A stretch of DNA of 64,000 nucleotides from Gordonibacter sp. Marseille-P4307 (GTDB lineage: Bacteria; Actinomycetota; Coriobacteriia; Coriobacteriales; Eggerthellaceae), in NCBI RefSeq assembly GCF_900604965.1, contig NZ_UWPD01000001.1:434001-498000 (forward strand). Direction: 5' to 3'. A model generated the notes under the pieces. It was not told the origin of the DNA. It saw only the letters and a list, made by a program, of their open reading frames with translations, and made no database searches. The position numbers and the translations under genes are program-made. Below, piece by piece: positions 32,327-64,000 of the stretch. How positions within the stretch are numbered: the first letter of the stretch is position 1; every line of letters begins with the position of its first letter.

Positions 32327-33307
32327 CTATTTCTCAACCCCCAAAGTCAATCCCGACCCGCTTACCAAGGGATAGTAGGCCCAGCTTATGCCACACGAAA
32401 CAAGAGTCCAGTACTGACCACTTTTCCCTGAAAACTTCTCGAGTCGAACTCCTTGTCCATTTTCCAGACCAATCGGGGTAAGGCACAATCCTTCATACCC
32501 TTTCGGATGAATAGAAACGACACTGTCCGGATATTCAGGGTAGCTAATCTTTTTTAGAACCCAGGATTCTTTTTCAGATCCCGCCGGGCTAATCCGAACC
32601 GCAGCCCCATCTTCCACCGACTTGTAAGACAATCTCTTTCCAGGTTCACAAATCGGTTGGATCACAGCGGAGGACATGTCCTTCGACAACAGGCACCATT
32701 TCTGAGAAGCGATGAGGCCCGGACGATAAATCCTGACGGACTCCAGACCGGAGTCTGAGCCCGGGTTAACACCATCCGCCTTGCCATTGTAGTGAAGAAT
32801 TCCGTCCCAGGGAAAATTATAATAGCCTCTAATCACCGATTCCTTACCGGTCTGGTCGCCTGTTTTTCCACCAGTGATCTGGCCGTTTTCATTGATAAGA
32901 AATTCGCTGAGCATATCGGGAGATGAACTCTGACACATAGCCGTATGGCTCGCTTCATTCAGGTAAATATCCCCTTTTTGCGCCACGAAACTCATAGGCT
33001 TCCATTCAAAAAGCCCGGTTTTGATGAACGCCTGCTTCATGTTTCCCGTATAGGTTGGACCTCCAACCCCAAGCTTTCCAAGCGCCCCTGCATAGGCAGT
33101 ACCCTCGAGAGCCAGCTGCCAGCATTCAATAACCGAACTCGAGCAATCTCGATCGCCTTGCTGGACTTTATAGCACTTTCCATCAACCCACACGTCACAG
33201 GCCCCTTCTCCATCACCCCAACGGCCAGAGCCCTGCGTATAGCCATGCCAGTCATGCTCACACAGATGTTTATGGCACTCAGCAGCCACTTTCGCACAAT
33301 TTGTCAT
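32327..33307 (-). CDS. phage-type endolysin: NlpC/P60-like hydrolase with ricin-type lectin domain
   Basis: A 326-aa peptidoglycan hydrolase. The N-terminal domain (about 1-165) has a Cys-containing motif GDRDCSSSVIECWQLAL and the His motif NEASHTAMC, typical of NlpC/P60-like phage amidohydrolases (HGYTQGSGRWGDG at the start is characteristic). The C-terminal part (about 200-326) resembles a ricin-B beta-trefoil, with GLCLTPIGLENGQGVRLEKF and a QYW box, and probably binds cell-wall sugar. No signal peptide is present, so release needs the holin. The ATG overlaps the holin stop in an ATGA arrangement. Codon usage and GC content are lower than in neighbouring genes. Confidence 0.88.
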   Translation of the reverse strand: MTNCAKVAAECHKHLCEHDWHGYTQGSGRWGDGEGACDVWVDGKCYKVQQGDRDCSSSVIECWQLALEGTAYAGALGKLGVGGPTYTGNMKQAFIKTGLFEWKPMSFVAQKGDIYLNEASHTAMCQSSSPDMLSEFLINENGQITGGKTGDQTGKESVIRGYYNFPWDGILHYNGKADGVNPGSDSGLESVRIYRPGLIASQKWCLLSKDMSSAVIQPICEPGKRLSYKSVEDGAAVRISPAGSEKESWVLKKISYPEYPDSVVSIHPKGYEGLCLTPIGLENGQGVRLEKFSGKSGQYWTLVSCGISWAYYPLVSGSGLTLGVEK

Positions 33308-33600
33308 CGTTCAATCCCTTCATCGCCAAATCCGTCCGTCCTAGGATCACTAATCACTCCAAGACAGACTAAAACTGATAAAACCGCATTAACCGCATCG
33401 ATTACTTCGGGAAAACCCGTAACTTCAACCAACCTAAACCCGAAAAGAGACATTGCTGCCTGGATTAAGAGCAGAGATGCAGAAATTGCAGTGCTCCAAA
33501 ACGCCTTGTTTCTTAACCTAGGCCCCCAATCGATCCCCGCCCAATTGTTACCCTCCCTACCCTTGGGGTGTAATTTGAACACTATCTTCAATTTCCGCAT
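33304..33600 (-). CDS. phage holin (phi LC3 type)
   Basis: A 98-aa membrane protein. It has NWAGIDWGPRLRNKAFW at the N-terminus, the usual start of LC3-type holins, and two hydrophobic segments (about 33-53 and 63-83). It opens the membrane so that the endolysin can reach the wall. It has a perfect Shine-Dalgarno (AGGAGGTGAATA before ATG). It is the first gene of the two-gene lysis operon. Confidence 0.88.
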   Translation of the reverse strand: MRKLKIVFKLHPKGREGNNWAGIDWGPRLRNKAFWSTAISASLLLIQAAMSLFGFRLVEVTGFPEVIDAVNAVLSVLVCLGVISDPRTDGFGDEGIER

Positions 33601-33746: not shown

Positions 33747-34415
33747 ATGATAATTTCGAAAAATATCAGAGCGCTAAGATCCGCTTACAATCTAACCCAA
33801 AGGGAGCTGGCAGAAATAGCAAGCGTTACGGAAAACGCTGTATCAAAGTGGGAAAACGGTTATGCGGCTCCTCGGTTAGGCGCCGTTGAAAAAATAACAA
33901 GCCATTTTGGCCTAAGTACGTCTGCCCTTCTAGAAAGCTTTGAGATTCAAAATGGGGGGGGATCGGATCCCTCACGATCATCCAAAGAAACCCTGTCTTC
34001 TTCTAACCTGGCTTACATTCCATTCAGGCAAAGCGGGTTATCCGGATTGAAAGCGATTGATCAGACGGAGACAGAGCCCTGCAATAAAGTGCCTGTGCCT
34101 TCATTTTTGGTCGAGTACTTCCCGGATTGCTTTGTGTTGAAAAACGATTCCGACGATATGGACAGATCAATCCCCCGAGACTGTTTAATCGTTGTAACCC
34201 CCGACACGAAACCAGAAAATGGATCCATTGTCCTCGTCTCAATCGACCAGGGACCCCTTCTTATTCGACGACTGCTCCGAACAAATCAGACAATTGTCCT
34301 GTCTGCCGAGAGTTCCGCTTTAAAGTGTAATGACCTGGTATTTCATACTGATTCCCATAAAAAGATCTCGTTCGTTGGCAGGATAATATGGTTCCAACCT
34401 GAGCGCATTCTCTGA
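33747..34415 (+). CDS. XRE-family repressor with S24-like C-terminal domain
   Basis: A 222-aa CI/LexA-like regulator. The N-terminal helix-turn-helix (about 7-60; YNLTQRELAEIASVTENAVS) is canonical. The C-terminal part (about 115-222) has the S24 fold: the Ser is in LKNDSDDMDRSIPRD, but where a catalytic Lys is expected the sequence is LLIRRLL, so Lys is replaced by Arg. No Ala-Gly cleavage site is evident. It may bind as a dimer without RecA-stimulated self-cleavage. The ATG has AAAGGAGG upstream. It is divergent from the lysis operon and very likely represses it through the inverted repeat. Confidence 0.88.
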   Translation: MIISKNIRALRSAYNLTQRELAEIASVTENAVSKWENGYAAPRLGAVEKITSHFGLSTSALLESFEIQNGGGSDPSRSSKETLSSSNLAYIPFRQSGLSGLKAIDQTETEPCNKVPVPSFLVEYFPDCFVLKNDSDDMDRSIPRDCLIVVTPDTKPENGSIVLVSIDQGPLLIRRLLRTNQTIVLSAESSALKCNDLVFHTDSHKKISFVGRIIWFQPERIL

Positions 34416-56565: not shown

Positions 56566-59230
56566 CTACTTCTCCCTCTTGCGCAATCCAGCAGCCGCCA
56601 ACCCCGCTGCCAGAAAAGCCGTTGCAAATGCCACGGCGAAGGGCACCGAGGTATCTCCCGTCGAGGGCATCACGAACACGCTCTTCACAGGCTTGTCCGG
56701 AGTGGGGGGAGTGGGGGGAGCCACCTGATTCTCGACGCCAACCGTCAGGCTGTTGTCGTCGGTCGCCTCATCGACGTCCACGGTCTTCAAAACCGCTCCG
56801 TCCGCTCCGATCTCCTGAACGGCATAATCGACGCGCTTACCGGTTGCGAAATCGAACACGGCAAGATCGGCCACGGTGGCCTTCCAGCCGTCGGCCTTCT
56901 TCAGCTTCGCTTCCCCTACCACAGACCCGTCATCAGCCTTAATCACACGCACGGTCACTTCATCTGCGGTTATCAAGTTTTCAGGAGCCGGAAGAGTGCC
57001 CATCTTCCATAGCTTTTCGATGGTCAGGTCTTTCAGGGGGTTAACCACCCTCATTGCCTGGTCGGCAGCCGCACCCTCGAAGTCGCTTGCCGTGAAGCGC
57101 TTTTCGTACACAAGCGAGCCATCGGCCTTCTTCAGAGGGTTCTTCTGGTCGTCGATCTCGACCAGCTTGTACTCGATGGGCTTCGAACGAACATCTTCGG
57201 CGGGCAATCCGATAATCTTGGACTTCCAGCCGTTTTCCTTGTTCAGCTCGATGATGTCGGAAAGCTTCGTACGCTTGCCGTCTTTGCTCAGCACGATAGC
57301 GTCAACGGGAACGTCTTTCCCTTCAAGGATGCGATACAGCTGGAAACGCGCAACGGCCGTATCGGGAACCCCGGCTTTGGGCTCTTTGCCCGTAGACTCG
57401 TTGTTCCACGCCTTCTCGAGCGCGGCATCGAACGCCGGATCCGTTCCGAACACCAGATGTCCGTTCGAGCCGACGCCTGCACCTCGGAACGACGAATTGT
57501 TGTGAATAACCATCGTGGCCACGCTTTTGGCCAAGCCAACCGACTTGTCGGAAACGACCGCGTGCAGCCCCTCGTTCGACAGCTTATCGGTGGGAGCGCC
57601 CTTAAGCACAACCGGATCACCCGGGTTCGCCTCGTCGAAGCGGCTAGGATCCGCGTTGCTGCCGTCGCGGTAGTACAGAACCGAGCCACCGCCCAGAATC
57701 CTATCGGCCAAATCCATAGGCTGAGACCCGTCGCTGCCCAGATTATCGTGGGCGATGTCGTCGCCGAACTGCTCTGCCTCGTTTTTCACGATGGCACCGC
57801 CGTTCGTTACATGAAGCACCAGGCTGCCGGTCGGGCACGTCCACACGCCGGCACCGATGGTGCCTTTGTTATCGGTCACCAGCGTGTTCTTGAAATGAGC
57901 TGTGTAGGATTTCGTGGCAACGTACACGCCGCCGCCCTGTTGGTCCGCTTTGTTGCCGGAAATATCGCCCCCGTTGAAATACACGTCGTTCGAGACGATG
58001 TTCACGCCGCCGCCCGTTCTGTCGGCGGTGTTGCCGGTTATGGAGCCTCCGTTCATAGTGAACGATGCAGGTTGGAGCAACGAGTATTCCTCAAGGGATA
58101 GGCCGCTGGACCCTCCCTCGCCATCAATTTCGGCCCACGTATTGCTGGCGCCCCAGGTGTAGAGGTTCATGGCGTTCACGCCGCCTCCGTTGGGAGCATG
58201 GTTGTCCTTGATCTCGCCGCCGTTCATGGTTACCGCGGCGTTTCCGAATATAAGAACTCCTCCGCCGCCGAAGCCGGACTCGTTACGCTCGATCGCTCCC
58301 CCGTTGATCTCGAAGGTCGAACGAACCTTCTGAGCTGCTTCGGGGGTCATATTCTTCAGATCGGAACCGTAAATCCAGTTCCACACGACAACGCCGCCGC
58401 CGAAGCCGCCGTTGTCGGAAATGGATCCGCCGTTCATCACAGCATGGGCTCCGTTATGCACCAGAAGTCCGCCGGCCTCTCCGTACGAAGAACCCGACAC
58501 GGCACTTCCGAAGCCCTTGCTGATCTCGCCGCCGTTCATGGTGAACAGGGCACCATCGCTTACCGCAACGTTACCGGCGCCGTACTGAGCGTAGCTGGGA
58601 TCCTGGAGTCGCATGTTGTCGGAAACTGCTCCGCCGTTCATGGTGAACGAAGCGTCCGGACCCTTCACGGTTACCGCTCCAACCGCGGCGCCCCGCAGAT
58701 CCCTGGCTCCGTGAATGCTGCCGTCTTCCATAATGAAAGAGCCCTCAACCAGAACGGTCGGCTCACCTGAAGGTACCCACTGTCCACGAGAGAAGACCTT
58801 CACGATGCCGGCGCCCGCTTTCGACAGCGTCAGCTTCGCTCCCTTTTCAACCTTCACCATGACGTTGGTGAATTTATCTTCCCTCGTCAGAGATGACGAC
58901 TCTTCTCCCCAAGGCGTCTTTGACTGAAAGCTGCAGAGCTCGATATCGGCTCCGGCGGGAATCACGATGGTTTTCGTTATCAGCACATCTCCGACACCCA
59001 GATAGATTCGGGTAGGGGTCGTACCCGCATCGTCAATCGCCTTCTTCAAGTCTTCCTGACTTGCTATATAGCTGGTAACTCCGTCAGCAAGGAAAACCTC
59101 TCTGCGGTCTTCAGCATGCGCAAGCGGCATCGACCAAGCCAACGCGATGGCAAACACCGTGGCTGCCAGAGCGCTGCAAATTGCCCCCCCCTCGCTTCTT
59201 TTCTCTCGTCCGTTTAAGCTGCGTTTCCAT
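56566..59230 (-). CDS. cell-wall-anchored beta-helix surface protein, signal peptide out of frame
   Basis: A large surface protein. ATG 59230 (site AGGAGG) opens METQLKRTREKKR and reaches a run of eight G (59191-59184). As sequenced, this frame ends after about 40 codons. With seven G it continues as GGAICSALAATVFAIALAWS then MPLAHA, an ideal signal peptide, into the long frame ending at 56566. The mature part has seven copies of an FTMNGGxIxxN beta-helix repeat (about residues 150-400), two Cna-B-like domains (about 595-800) and a sorting signal MPSTGD plus membrane helix and basic tail. Either the gene is phase-variable and OFF here, or the run length is a sequencing error. Confidence 0.85.
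59184..59191 (-). repeat. homopolymeric G8 tract in signal-peptide codons
   Basis: Eight consecutive G on the coding strand, 37 bases after the ATG. Length change by one base decides whether the surface protein is in frame. Confidence 0.85.
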
Positions 59231-59371
59231 CTTGGCCTATCCTCCTGTTTACTACCGATGTTGGTATAACGCTTACCTTTCTAAGGATAGACGATTTTAA
59301 TTGAACTAGATAGACCGCAAGGTACGGGGGCGCGAGCATTTTTCCGTACCTCAAGCAGCTAGCCCCCTTAC

Positions 59372-59404
59372 AACAAAAGGGCCCCGGGATGATTCCCGGA
59401 GCCC
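59372..59404 (-). terminator. terminator of the large surface protein gene
   Basis: On the minus strand GGGCTCCGGGA pairs with TCCCGGGGCCC (59379-59404, one G-T pair), followed by TTTTGTTG. Confidence 0.88.
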
Positions 59405-59430: not shown

Positions 59431-62400
59431 CTACAGGTTCTTACGCCTTCTTGCTCGCAGGGCGAAAGCCGCAACCAGCAGAGAGCCGAAAGCTCCCGCT
59501 ACCAGCACGGCTGCAACGGCGGAGTCGCCGGTCTGAGGGGCGACCTTCACCTTCTTGGCAGGGGCAACCACCTTGCCGGTATCCACGTTCGGCTTATCCA
59601 CCTCGGGCTGACCGGGCTGGGGGACATCCTTCTCGAGCACCGTAAGCTTCGCGGTGGTCGTAGAAGTCGCACCGGCTTTGTCGGTCACCTTGAAGATGAT
59701 CTCGTAAACGCCGGGCTTGCCGGTAGTGAAGCCCTCGGGGTAGGTCACCTCGGGAACGAGGTCGCCATCCTCGGGGTCGTAAGCACGCGTCACCATGTCT
59801 TTGATGGCATCGAACGGGTCGCCAACGTGGATAGTCACGTCGCGAGCCTCGACCGAAGGCGCCTCGTTCATGGGGATCAGTTCCTTCTGAACCTCGACGG
59901 TGAACTGGATCGCATCGGCATCGGTAGCGATGGCATCTTTGCCGGGCTGCCATTGCTTGGCGTTCCAAACAAAGCTGAACGCTTCTCGATGGGTATTTCC
60001 AGAAGCGACGCCAAGGAAGCCGCCCTTTACGCTGCCCGAAACGGTCAGGCGCTTGGGAGTGTCATCCTGGGCCACATCCATCTTCACACCCGGCACCAGC
60101 AGCTTCATCCAGCCGTTTTCATCGCCGGCACGCTCGACAGCCGCCTTCAAGTCGGCATAGGTGCGAATGTCCTCGGGCTTGTCGAATACCAGCCCGATCT
60201 TGAGGGTCTTACCCTCGATCGAAGAGCTGGAAATCACGAACGGACCGAAGTTCTGGGCAGCAAGACCGGATTCGGTGGCGTCGGTGAACGACATGCCCTC
60301 GGGCAGCGTGAACTGAACATGGAACTCGCTGCTCTTAACCTCTACGTCGATGTTCTTGGGGTCGGGATTACCGAAGGCCCTCTCGACAAGCTTCATCTGC
60401 TCGAGCACGGGATCGACCTTGATGGCCCCCGTGAACGTCAGAACGTCGGCGGCCTTAACCGGGAACACGGCGTCGTGCTCGGTCTCGGTTCCGATAAGGA
60501 TATCGCCCTCCAGATCGCCCTCAGCCGGAGCGGGCACCTTCAGCGTCGCCTGAATGACCGAGTCGTTGGCCGCATCGACGTCTTTGCCCTCGGGGTTCTG
60601 AACCCCATTCCACTTGAACATGAACAGCTTCACGGTTTGGTTGTGCTTGGCTTTGGCGTTGAACGAGCCTTCGACCGAGCCCTTCACCACAAGCGTGGAG
60701 GGAACGGTTACCGCAGAGGAAACCAGCACGTCCTGCACTTCCAGATACATCCAGTCCTTAGTTCCGTCGCCTACCGAATCGACCGCCTTTTCAAGATCGG
60801 AGTAGTTGGCTATAGCGTCGGTAAGATTGAACGTGACCTCGATGTCGTTGCCGGTTTTCTTAACGTCCTTGACGGTGAACGCGCTGCCGAAGTTGACGCC
60901 CTTTACCACGGGGGTATCCGAGACGGTCAGGCCTTCGGGCAAAGTCAGCTTCGCCGTGAAGTTGAAGCTGTCCACCGTGATTTCGATTTCATCGTGCTTG
61001 GTGTTGGGATACAGCGCCTCGATGGCAGCCATCTGCTGCTTCACGGGGCCGGCGTCGATGGCGCCGACGATCTTCAGCTTCTCTCCCACCACCGTGGGAA
61101 ACGCCGCATCATGCGTGGTGTCAAGCGCGCGGTCGATGTTGCCGGCCACCAGTATGTCGGCGGGAATCGGCATCTCGACGGGCTTCTTAACCACCAAGGT
61201 GTGACTTATGGTATCGGGCATCTCGGGATTGGCCGCCGAGGCGAGCTGCTTGGCGGTCCAGGTGAAATTGAAGAGCTTGCTGGTGCCGCCCTCGTCGGTG
61301 GCAAGGGAAGAGAAACTGCCCTGAACGCTTCCGGTAGCGGTGAGTACGTCACCATCGGCAGCCTTGCCGCCGTCGATCTTCAGGCCGTCAACGTTCACCG
61401 AAAGGGTGGTCGCATTGGCGCCGAATGCTCGTGAGTTGGCGGAAATCGTATCGTTTCCGCCGGTAGATTCCACGGCATCTTTCAGCTGCTTGTAGTTGCT
61501 TATGCCGTCAACGAGGGTGAAAACGACCTTGACCTCGTTGCCGCTCACGGTGGACTGGGCAACCTTGAAGCAGCTCCCCAAACCCCTCACGGTAACGGCG
61601 GGGTTCTGGGGGATAACGATGCCGTCAGGAAGGGTCATCGTTGCCGTGAAAGTCGATTTCGGGTTGGCAAGAGCGATGCTTTCCGGCTTGCCCGCAGCGT
61701 CGGGGAACATGGCCTCCACGCCAGCCATAGCGGCCTTTACCTGCGAAACGTCAACTTCACCGGTGAGGCTGAAGGTTTCGGTGTCGGCAGCTACCTCTTG
61801 GGTCTTGTTGCTTGCCTGGGGGTCGGCTCCCCACATATCGCCATCGAGCGTGAACGCGTTCTCGATCTTCTCGATACTGGGATCGTCGATCCATTGAATG
61901 TAGTAGGTCGTATCCGACTTTATCTCGGGGTTTTCCCCAGGATACGTTATCCCGTACATCTTCTTCTGCACGAATCGGAAGGTGTCCTTCTTGCTGGTTG
62001 CAGAGCCGTACCACAGTACGGAATCCTCCAACTTGTAGCCGGGATTCACCGCACTGCCCTCGGGCTTGAGAAGCTCGGTATCCGTATCGCCAAGAAGCTC
62101 GAGAAGCTTCTGCTGATACGTGGCCTGGTTTATTACGGTAGCAATTTCACCGCCGTTTTCATCTTTCTCGATCTTGAAAACTTCGGGCTTCGTCTTGAAC
62201 ACGGAAGAGTCGGTGAAGGAACCGCCGTTCGCAGAGAACTTGACGGTGTACTTCTCGTCTTCCCACTGAGCATACAGGTCGACCTTCTGGTCGCCCTCCG
62301 GAACACTGATCGCGGATTGAGCCACATATGCCACTCCGGATCCGTCGGGTTTCGTGTTCCACGACTTGAACTTCTTGCCCGGTTGCAAGAAATCGTTCCT

Positions 62401-64000
62401 GGCTGCGACCACGCTCTCGAACGAAAGCGCTTCCGTTACTCTATCGGGCCTGTTGTCAGATACCGCATACGTCACATCAGACGAAGTGTTGCTGTGGTAC
62501 ACAACCCCGTAGCTTGAGGCGTTGGCCTTCCATTTGGCGTAAACAACCATATCGGACTTGACGACATCGGCTTGAGGAGCGAACGGCTTCTCGACGCCGC
62601 CGTCTTTATAGAACCAACCCAGGAAGTCGTAGCCGATTGCCACCGGCGTGTTCGGCACCGAAGCCGTTCCAGCCGCGGGAACCGCAGCGGGCAGAGAGTA
62701 ACCCCTCATCGCCGTTGATTCGAGATCGGCCGTGGTTCCGTCTGCATAGGTGGCCGCAACCTTGCTGGCGGCGTCATCCGCATTCAGCTTGAAGGTAACC
62801 TTCGCTGCGGGAACCCATACGTGCTTTTTGCCGTCGGATGAAGCGGTTGCCACTTTGTACGAATACGTAGCGCCGTTTTTGTTAATGGGCTGAAGTTCAT
62901 TGACGGACGAATCGGCAAGCGTGAACAGCATAAGCTTCTCGCCGCCGTTTGCAGAACCGTTGGTGGGTATCGCACGGCCCGTATAGAAGCTCTCGGAATA
63001 CTTCACGAGATAGGATCCGCCAAGAACCACATAACCATCGGCCTTCGTAGACTGGGACAGGCCGTTATCCGCGTCCTTGGAAGCGGGGGACTCAACGCGG
63101 CTGTTCCCATTGAAAGTTATGGTGCCCTTGTCCTGGCTTCCGAAAAGCGATCCGCGATTCTTCCCATAGCCGATCATGGTCGAATCGTTGAAGACAACGT
63201 CTCCGGTGTTCACGTTAAGACCACCTGTAGGCGAACCCTGCAAGTCCAAAACAGAGTCGTTGAACGTAAACGGGTTCTTGCCGCCGCTGGTGTTAACCGA
63301 AATTCCAGCGGTACGGCCGCCAAGCGTCGTGATACGAGAGGAGCTGACCGTTCCGCCCGCGCAGAAGAAGGCGGGGCCACCGCCGAAGAACGAACGATAC
63401 GGGTCGACCGTGAACTCGGAGTTGTCCATCGTCAAAACGTTCACATAGTAACCGGAGTAGCCGGAAACCTTCAGCGAAGCGTTTTTGAGGGTGAGATCCG
63501 TCTGATCGAACCACGTTTTGCTTGAAGTGACGCTGACCGTCGCGTTCTCGAAAACGGTGGAGTCACTATAAAAACTTGTGTTGTAACCGCCGGTGGAAGT
63601 AATCTTCACGCTGTCCTTTGCGGCAGAGCCCTTAACCGCGCCGGCGAGGTGGATTCCGCGACTATCCTTAGCTGCGCCGTTGTTCGTAAACTCGTACACA
63701 CCGTCGGTGATAGTCGAACCGGCCTGAGCGGTAAGCGCAGTAGCGAAACCAGACATGCTGAGCTTGCCTCCGGGCGCGCACTTAAGCGTCGTGCCGCCGG
63801 GGAATACCAAGCCGTTCTTGCCGGTTCCGGTCATGGCAACGTCGCCCTCGATGATAAGCGTGACGCCTGCGGGAATGGTGATGGGGTCGGTAAGCCCGAA
63901 ATTACCCTTCACGTGAATGGTTCCGCCGTCCTTTACGGCAGCTATTCCCGCCTGCAAAGTTTCAAGAGCCTCGCTCTCGCTGTTGCCAGCGGCCGCATCA
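59431..64000 (-). CDS. large cell-wall-anchored multidomain surface protein (N-terminus beyond window)
   Basis: More than 1520 aa visible; the frame is open at the window edge, so signal peptide and start are missing. Numbering from codon 63957: residues 1-370 are a parallel beta-helix (GTIHVKGNFGLTDPITIPAG); about 385-700 hold Listeria-Bacteroides type repeats (YDFLGWFYKDGG..VVYAKW, FKSWNTKPDGSG..LYAQW); about 709-927, 928-1140 and 1141-1354 are three tandem repeats of about 215 residues; about 1360-1437 is an Ig-like domain (RAYDPEDGDLVPEV); the end is APQTGD, a membrane helix and RARRRKNL, a sortase signal. Probably an adhesin. It ends 200 bases upstream of the other surface protein gene. 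Confidence 0.9.
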   Translation of the reverse strand, partial: DAAAGNSESEALETLQAGIAAVKDGGTIHVKGNFGLTDPITIPAGVTLIIEGDVAMTGTGKNGLVFPGGTTLKCAPGGKLSMSGFATALTAQAGSTITDGVYEFTNNGAAKDSRGIHLAGAVKGSAAKDSVKITSTGGYNTSFYSDSTVFENATVSVTSSKTWFDQTDLTLKNASLKVSGYSGYYVNVLTMDNSEFTVDPYRSFFGGGPAFFCAGGTVSSSRITTLGGRTAGISVNTSGGKNPFTFNDSVLDLQGSPTGGLNVNTGDVVFNDSTMIGYGKNRGSLFGSQDKGTITFNGNSRVESPASKDADNGLSQSTKADGYVVLGGSYLVKYSESFYTGRAIPTNGSANGGEKLMLFTLADSSVNELQPINKNGATYSYKVATASSDGKKHVWVPAAKVTFKLNADDAASKVAATYADGTTADLESTAMRGYSLPAAVPAAGTASVPNTPVAIGYDFLGWFYKDGGVEKPFAPQADVVKSDMVVYAKWKANASSYGVVYHSNTSSDVTYAVSDNRPDRVTEALSFESVVAARNDFLQPGKKFKSWNTKPDGSGVAYVAQSAISVPEGDQKVDLYAQWEDEKYTVKFSANGGSFTDSSVFKTKPEVFKIEKDENGGEIATVINQATYQQKLLELLGDTDTELLKPEGSAVNPGYKLEDSVLWYGSATSKKDTFRFVQKKMYGITYPGENPEIKSDTTYYIQWIDDPSIEKIENAFTLDGDMWGADPQASNKTQEVAADTETFSLTGEVDVSQVKAAMAGVEAMFPDAAGKPESIALANPKSTFTATMTLPDGIVIPQNPAVTVRGLGSCFKVAQSTVSGNEVKVVFTLVDGISNYKQLKDAVESTGGNDTISANSRAFGANATTLSVNVDGLKIDGGKAADGDVLTATGSVQGSFSSLATDEGGTSKLFNFTWTAKQLASAANPEMPDTISHTLVVKKPVEMPIPADILVAGNIDRALDTTHDAAFPTVVGEKLKIVGAIDAGPVKQQMAAIEALYPNTKHDEIEITVDSFNFTAKLTLPEGLTVSDTPVVKGVNFGSAFTVKDVKKTGNDIEVTFNLTDAIANYSDLEKAVDSVGDGTKDWMYLEVQDVLVSSAVTVPSTLVVKGSVEGSFNAKAKHNQTVKLFMFKWNGVQNPEGKDVDAANDSVIQATLKVPAPAEGDLEGDILIGTETEHDAVFPVKAADVLTFTGAIKVDPVLEQMKLVERAFGNPDPKNIDVEVKSSEFHVQFTLPEGMSFTDATESGLAAQNFGPFVISSSSIEGKTLKIGLVFDKPEDIRTYADLKAAVERAGDENGWMKLLVPGVKMDVAQDDTPKRLTVSGSVKGGFLGVASGNTHREAFSFVWNAKQWQPGKDAIATDADAIQFTVEVQKELIPMNEAPSVEARDVTIHVGDPFDAIKDMVTRAYDPEDGDLVPEVTYPEGFTTGKPGVYEIIFKVTDKAGATSTTTAKLTVLEKDVPQPGQPEVDKPNVDTGKVVAPAKKVKVAPQTGDSAVAAVLVAGAFGSLLVAAFALRARRRKNL

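Follow-up and report, generated by a model that had tools for sequence, protein, structure and literature searches.

Slipped-strand phase variation appears to be the best explanation for a gene in which a run of eight G residues interrupts the signal peptide of a sortase-anchored surface protein, a view that we hold with reasonable confidence and that is based on one genome of the species. Since comparable tracts occur at the starts or promoters of many surface-protein genes in related species, the locus probably belongs to a group of poly-G elements that switch genes on and off at random. Unless a contig or locus is named, positions are those of the analyzed 64-kb stretch of DNA (the window).

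The G8 tract and the protein encoded behind it

The gene is located on the minus strand. A Shine-Dalgarno sequence, AGGAGG (59241-59246), is followed after a 10-nt spacer by an ATG at 59230, and a homopolymer of exactly eight G (59184-59191), the candidate slippage tract, is situated 39 nt inside the gene in the region coding for the signal peptide. In the assembled sequence, translation from this ATG yields METQLKRTREKKRGGGNLQRSGSHGVCHRVGLVDAACAC and then terminates at a TGA, the product being a short ORF of 39 aa (59111-59230). The 863-codon open frame for the surface protein (56566-59157) is out of frame with the ATG, and by inspection another length class of the tract would connect the two via a typical signal peptide. 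An earlier note on this DNA had described the ribosome site, the ATG and the eight G, a stop after about 40 codons and the restoration of a signal peptide by a different tract length. The sequence agrees with all of these points, including the frame arithmetic, and an intact ortholog of the same genus (genome G003) has a similar start.

Taken by itself, the 863-codon ORF lacks a credible start. No ATG, GTG or TTG occurs in its frame from the preceding stop to a GTG at 59157. This GTG falls within the hydrophobic stretch of the signal peptide, of which it would keep only half, and no ribosome site precedes it. Expression from G8 with no slippage of DNA, that is, by transcriptional slippage, ribosomal frameshifting or a non-standard downstream start, is very improbable. 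In the upstream direction, the downstream frame continues across the tract without a stop (904 codons from stop to stop), and the G-run itself looks like a ribosome site. However, the frame offers no ATG, GTG or TTG having a ribosome site, a start at GTG 59157 would drop the charged n-region present in the G003 ortholog, and a comparable tract in B. breve acts by DNA slippage (PMC9187656).

A consensus scan revealed no sigma-70-like promoter for this gene. The next gene upstream codes for another sortase-anchored surface protein (1650 aa, intact; 59431-64000, minus strand), whose start at G000:C2:498383 is just past the window edge. An intrinsic-terminator-like hairpin with 11 pairs and a T-rich tail (59379-59404, minus strand) lies between these two genes; it was the one hairpin of this kind found, compared with 0.4 in shuffles. 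The downstream neighbor is a convergent glycine transporter (PF03458).

At its C-terminus, the 863-codon ORF has a cell-wall sorting signal, MPSTGDTSVPFAVAFATAFLAAGLAAAGLRKREK (56569-56670, minus strand), with the motif MPSTG and a score above the cut-off for PF00746 (Gram_pos_anchor; 21.6 bits, cut-off 20). A CnaB domain was detected at residues 712-787 (56797-57024, minus strand; Pfam PF05738, 42.8 bits, cut-off 22.3), and it matched the S. aureus CNA B repeat 1d2o in Foldseek (E 6.5e-7). An AlphaFold2 model, which was built from a four-sequence alignment and had a mean pLDDT of 65, suggested a right-handed beta-helix-like region with 'MNGG..I..N.A..GGGV' repeats at residues about 20-440 (57838-59100, minus strand), in which short strands follow in regular succession and pLDDT is mostly 75-97. 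CnaB-like domains follow this region in the model, residues about 460 to 615 being poorly predicted. The top solved-structure matches in Foldseek were S. aureus CNA B repeats and pilins, and the beta-helix part was matched weakly. The assignment of the ORF as a sortase-anchored surface protein is well supported. The product had been called a likely surface adhesin; its surface anchoring holds on the basis of the CnaB and Gram_pos_anchor domains, whereas adhesin function is a suggestion drawn only from the CnaB and beta-helix domains.

The following sequence of events may be proposed. Slipped-strand mispairing in replication would add or remove G in the tract. In some length classes, the ATG and the charged n-region would be joined to the hydrophobic core and the 863-codon ORF (ON), and in others, including the assembled G8, translation would stop after about 40 codons (OFF). 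Sec would export the full product, cleavage would follow the AHA, and sortase would attach the resulting beta-helix/CnaB protein, which is probably an adhesin, to the cell surface. This gene would then belong to a group of poly-G switches, spread over this genome and its relatives, that work through the reading frame or through promoter spacing. Slippage, reversibility, expression and adhesion at this particular locus are what we infer from these data.

Orthologs, selection and chance

The intact ortholog in G003 (1014 aa, 78% identical) is syntenic: an LPXTG-type gene lies upstream of it, and its downstream neighbor is again the glycine transporter. Its start, MQLSRTRKTTMGGVLAVVAVILALVWSASSAHAADRKEV, resembles the joined start of this gene and shares with it the charged part QL.RTR, the Gly-Gly, the hydrophobic core and the AHA cleavage region. 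By inspection, the signal peptide is whole in the ortholog and interrupted by the tract at G8 in this gene. The ortholog has only G6 at the tract position, and two tandem relatives in G001 (43-45% identity) have no tract. Conservation of the tract at this gene was rejected on these grounds; tracts do recur in relatives, at other surface genes.

Comparison with the G003 ortholog over 863 aligned codons gave a dS of 0.89, a dN of 0.145 and a dN/dS of about 0.16. The pN/pS of the ORF was 0.25 and was even along the gene, compared with 0.14 for the neighboring glycine transporter, and no second disruption was found across the 863 codons. These values indicate that the ORF is under purifying selection, and therefore any loss would have to be very recent or reversible. 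An old pseudogene is excluded by this selection on 863 intact codons. A recent fixed loss, in which a one-base change of the tract closed the gene in the lineage of this strain and left a young pseudogene whose tract has no switching role, is unlikely. It is compatible with the dN/dS because this estimate averages over both lineages, and it would fit the G6 in G003, the other relatives with no tract at this position, the shortness of G8 and the use of a single genome (a scan of genome contigs for strains of the same species matched only distant Clostridia). However, the ORF is otherwise intact and selected throughout, tracts at many other surface genes of the genus, both in and out of frame, point to a switching class, and any such change at a G8 would remain revertible at an elevated rate.

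Another explanation, which we consider somewhat less likely still, is that the homopolymer was sequenced or assembled wrongly and that the frame is open in the real genome. Homopolymers are where indel errors are commonest, and both this gene and an HsdS gene of the same genome (see below) contain coding G8 runs that are out of frame. On the other hand, the other conserved genes of the syntenic 18-kb block were each matched in one frame, a G8 at 33954-33961 sits in an intact gene, and the two out-of-frame tracts would require errors in opposite directions. Nor would an error account for the tracts placed at surface genes in further genomes that were assembled independently.

The mere presence of a G8 was rejected as evidence since shuffled sequences yield more of them than were observed: the window (60% GC) contains two G8 runs, whereas 4.07 were expected from dinucleotide-preserving shuffles of the 64 kb. 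GGG GGG codes for none of 63 Gly-Gly pairs in ten sampled ORFs, about two being expected from codon use, and this result contributes little. The evidence is the location of the tracts. At this gene, a G8 placed 39 nt into the ORF lets changes in length alter the frame, the frame is closed at G8, and the downstream gene is intact and kept by selection. With an intact congener ortholog and tracts at surface genes throughout the genus, these features favor slipped-strand phase variation, which the earlier note had considered likely. They have to be set against a tract at the short end of the range (sibling loci carry G9-G14) that is not conserved at this position. Our confidence in phase variation is tempered because the tract is short, is absent from this gene in relatives and is known from a single genome assembly.

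Eight tracts of at least G8 were found in this genome. The other one in the window (33954-33961, plus strand) keeps the frame of an intact XRE/S24 (LexA/CI-like) regulator (33747-34415), where it falls in the linker; by inspection, this gene adjoins lysin- and holin-like genes at 32327-33600. The tract is probably unrelated to switching. The same is probably true of tracts located before folD (L037), in a terminator-like repeat (L038) and in the ribosome-site region of a ppsR-like gene (L039), and of an intergenic G9 (L040).

Poly-G tracts elsewhere and mismatch repair

All tracts of at least G8 in four genomes of the genus were listed and their surroundings were read. In G003, the gene for a 1237-aa collagen-binding-like LPXTG protein has a G11 within its signal peptide, and that for a 1181-aa LPXTG protein has a G10 directly ahead of the hydrophobic core; both tracts are in frame. 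A G14 was found upstream of a 960-aa LPXTG protein. The homolog of the 1237-aa protein in G001 (L073, 50% identity) has a G10 after its signal peptide and its frame is broken. Thus, two homologous genes both have tracts, and one of them is open and the other closed. In G002, several genes for secreted or anchored proteins have G9-G12 tracts within them or upstream. Tracts of G9-G14 at secreted or LPXTG-type genes, whether in the signal peptide, in the coding region or upstream, are those of L066, L067 and L070 in G003, L073 in G001, and L081-L086 and L088 in G002.

Nine of the 20 tracts of at least G9 were near starts of secreted or anchored ORFs, in a zone from -300 to +600 of the start that was chosen after seeing the data and that makes up 8.8% of the window (p 2e-5). 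When anchored genes only were considered, 6 of the 20 were in the zone, compared with 2.4% of the window (p 6e-6). The window, which served as background in both comparisons, itself has two LPXTG genes, and this makes the background high. In G022, which belongs to another genus and whose tract set was examined after the hypothesis had been formed, all three tracts of at least G10 (G10-G11) were about 50-120 bp upstream of LPXTG-like genes. These loci are L135, L136 and L137, the last of which encodes an N-terminus, VKRKLCCLISAVLA, similar to the one found at L067 in G003, MKRKLCCLMSAVLA. Alignment of the regions around intergenic tracts for a common promoter motif showed only the tract itself.

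One intergenic tract of this genome is predicted to be a promoter-spacer switch. This G10 (G000:C2:1457329-1457338, minus strand; L041 3830-3839) lies exactly in the 16-bp spacer between TTGATC and TATAAT, about 105 bp upstream of a gene whose 699-aa product has a signal peptide and an MPVTG anchor. Its promoter score was reached by 0.25% of random positions, and it was the only intergenic tract with exact placement between a -35 and a -10 element. Homopolymer switches in promoter spacers are known for porA of Neisseria and the fim genes of Bordetella. These are similar to L041 in that a G/C run is located between -35 and -10, but they occur in Proteobacteria and the L041 switch is a prediction. 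The G002 homolog of the 699-aa protein has a G9 inside its coding sequence instead (L082). On its other side, the L041 tract is flanked by a divergent lipoprotein gene.

A further G8 (G000:C2:1661554-1661561, minus strand; L036 2055-2062) is a candidate specificity switch. It lies in a type I HsdS gene directly behind HsdM, where it separates two halves that are homologous to each other (BLASTP E 7e-19), the first of which matches Methylase_S. Frame arithmetic indicates that another length class of the tract would join the halves. Phase-variable HsdS subunits of type I restriction systems, of the NgoAV kind, are known. As in these, the L036 tract is placed between two target-recognition halves; unlike them, it is a candidate known in a single length. 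A survey covering other restriction-system types is also available (PMC7394358).

A search of 21 genomes, made up of this one and 20 relatives, detected no MutS1 (TIGR01070), whereas 11 of 14 control genomes gave it. NucS likewise exceeded its cut-off in none of the 21, with 7 controls positive. Since neither protein was detected, both known mismatch repair systems seem to be absent, and homopolymers would then be left unprotected.

Relation to known systems

The closest known case is that of the B. breve UCC2003 pilin genes bbr_0113 and bbr_1889, in which the Sec signal and the LPXTG part are in two ORFs with a G-tract between them, and pili are formed when the parts are placed in frame (PMC9187656). 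Tract lengths in this organism were mixed in culture (G11 37% and G12 59% at one locus) and shifted in mice, G11 being strongly mixed and G10 much less so (PMC9187656). Both cases are in Actinomycetota, the Sec signal is in a short upstream ORF, the downstream LPXTG ORF has no ribosome site of its own, and tract length decides the frame. However, the B. breve tracts are G10-G11, with measured mixtures, and belong to pilus operons with a dedicated sortase, whereas here a G8 inside the signal peptide precedes a beta-helix/CnaB protein known from the sequence of one genome. In addition, no sortase is adjacent to this gene as would be expected in a pilus cluster of the B. breve type; its neighbors are the glycine transporter and the LPXTG gene behind the terminator.

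With regard to length, switching in C. jejuni has been shown for homopolymers of at least 8, and mutability may be low near this cut-off (PMC6321876). G/C tracts were also described at surface-protein genes of Gardnerella (8 bp or more; PMC11287997) and at surface genes of Cutibacterium/Propionibacterium acnes, where length variation follows clades and change is therefore slow (PMC4746626). Both resemble the present locus in having long G/C tracts upstream of or inside surface-protein, LPXTG or adhesin genes, but they are from other classes and the proteins are unrelated. Open-licence papers on phase variation in Coriobacteriia, Coriobacteriaceae, Eggerthella, Eggerthellaceae or Cryptobacterium yielded only prophage-linked variation in E. 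lenta. The statement that no such switch had been described in Coriobacteriia is in agreement with this literature, although the mechanism was already proven in another actinobacterial class (PMC9187656). Thus, the kind of switch is already known from B. breve; what looks new is that it occurs here and, as a set, in this family.

Whether the family runs a broad poly-G contingency system, comprising signal-peptide frame, promoter-spacer and type I HsdS switches with no detected MutS or NucS, is in our view an evenly balanced question. In such a system, the HsdS specificity switch could alter methylation genome-wide, and no known mismatch repair would take part in setting how mutable the tracts are. 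With MutS and NucS missing, such a group would offer a natural setting in which to test the mutability of homopolymers under this condition. If the proposed switching occurs, a little-studied actinobacterial group would vary its surface at random, similar to mucosal pathogens and bifidobacteria. Single reference genomes would misstate which surface proteins are made, annotation pipelines would label live switch genes as pseudogenes, and tract length, as opposed to gene content, could underlie differences between strains in colonization or immune recognition.

Several further tracts were observed in relatives. In G031 (L138 4001-4703 and L139 3655-4352), G9-G11 is repeated about every 345 bp in front of tandem short cassettes, which sit behind a 331-aa gene and look like an array of frame-variable modules. 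Near gene ends in G006 (L141 3978-4056) and G004 (L140 3928-4001), G-runs reach G33 and G21, respectively, and these may be either real hypervariable tracts or assembly artefacts. In G002 (L086 4001-4120), G10 runs border a scaffold gap of Ns on either side, immediately upstream of a gene for an anchored protein, and assemblies seem to break at G-tracts.
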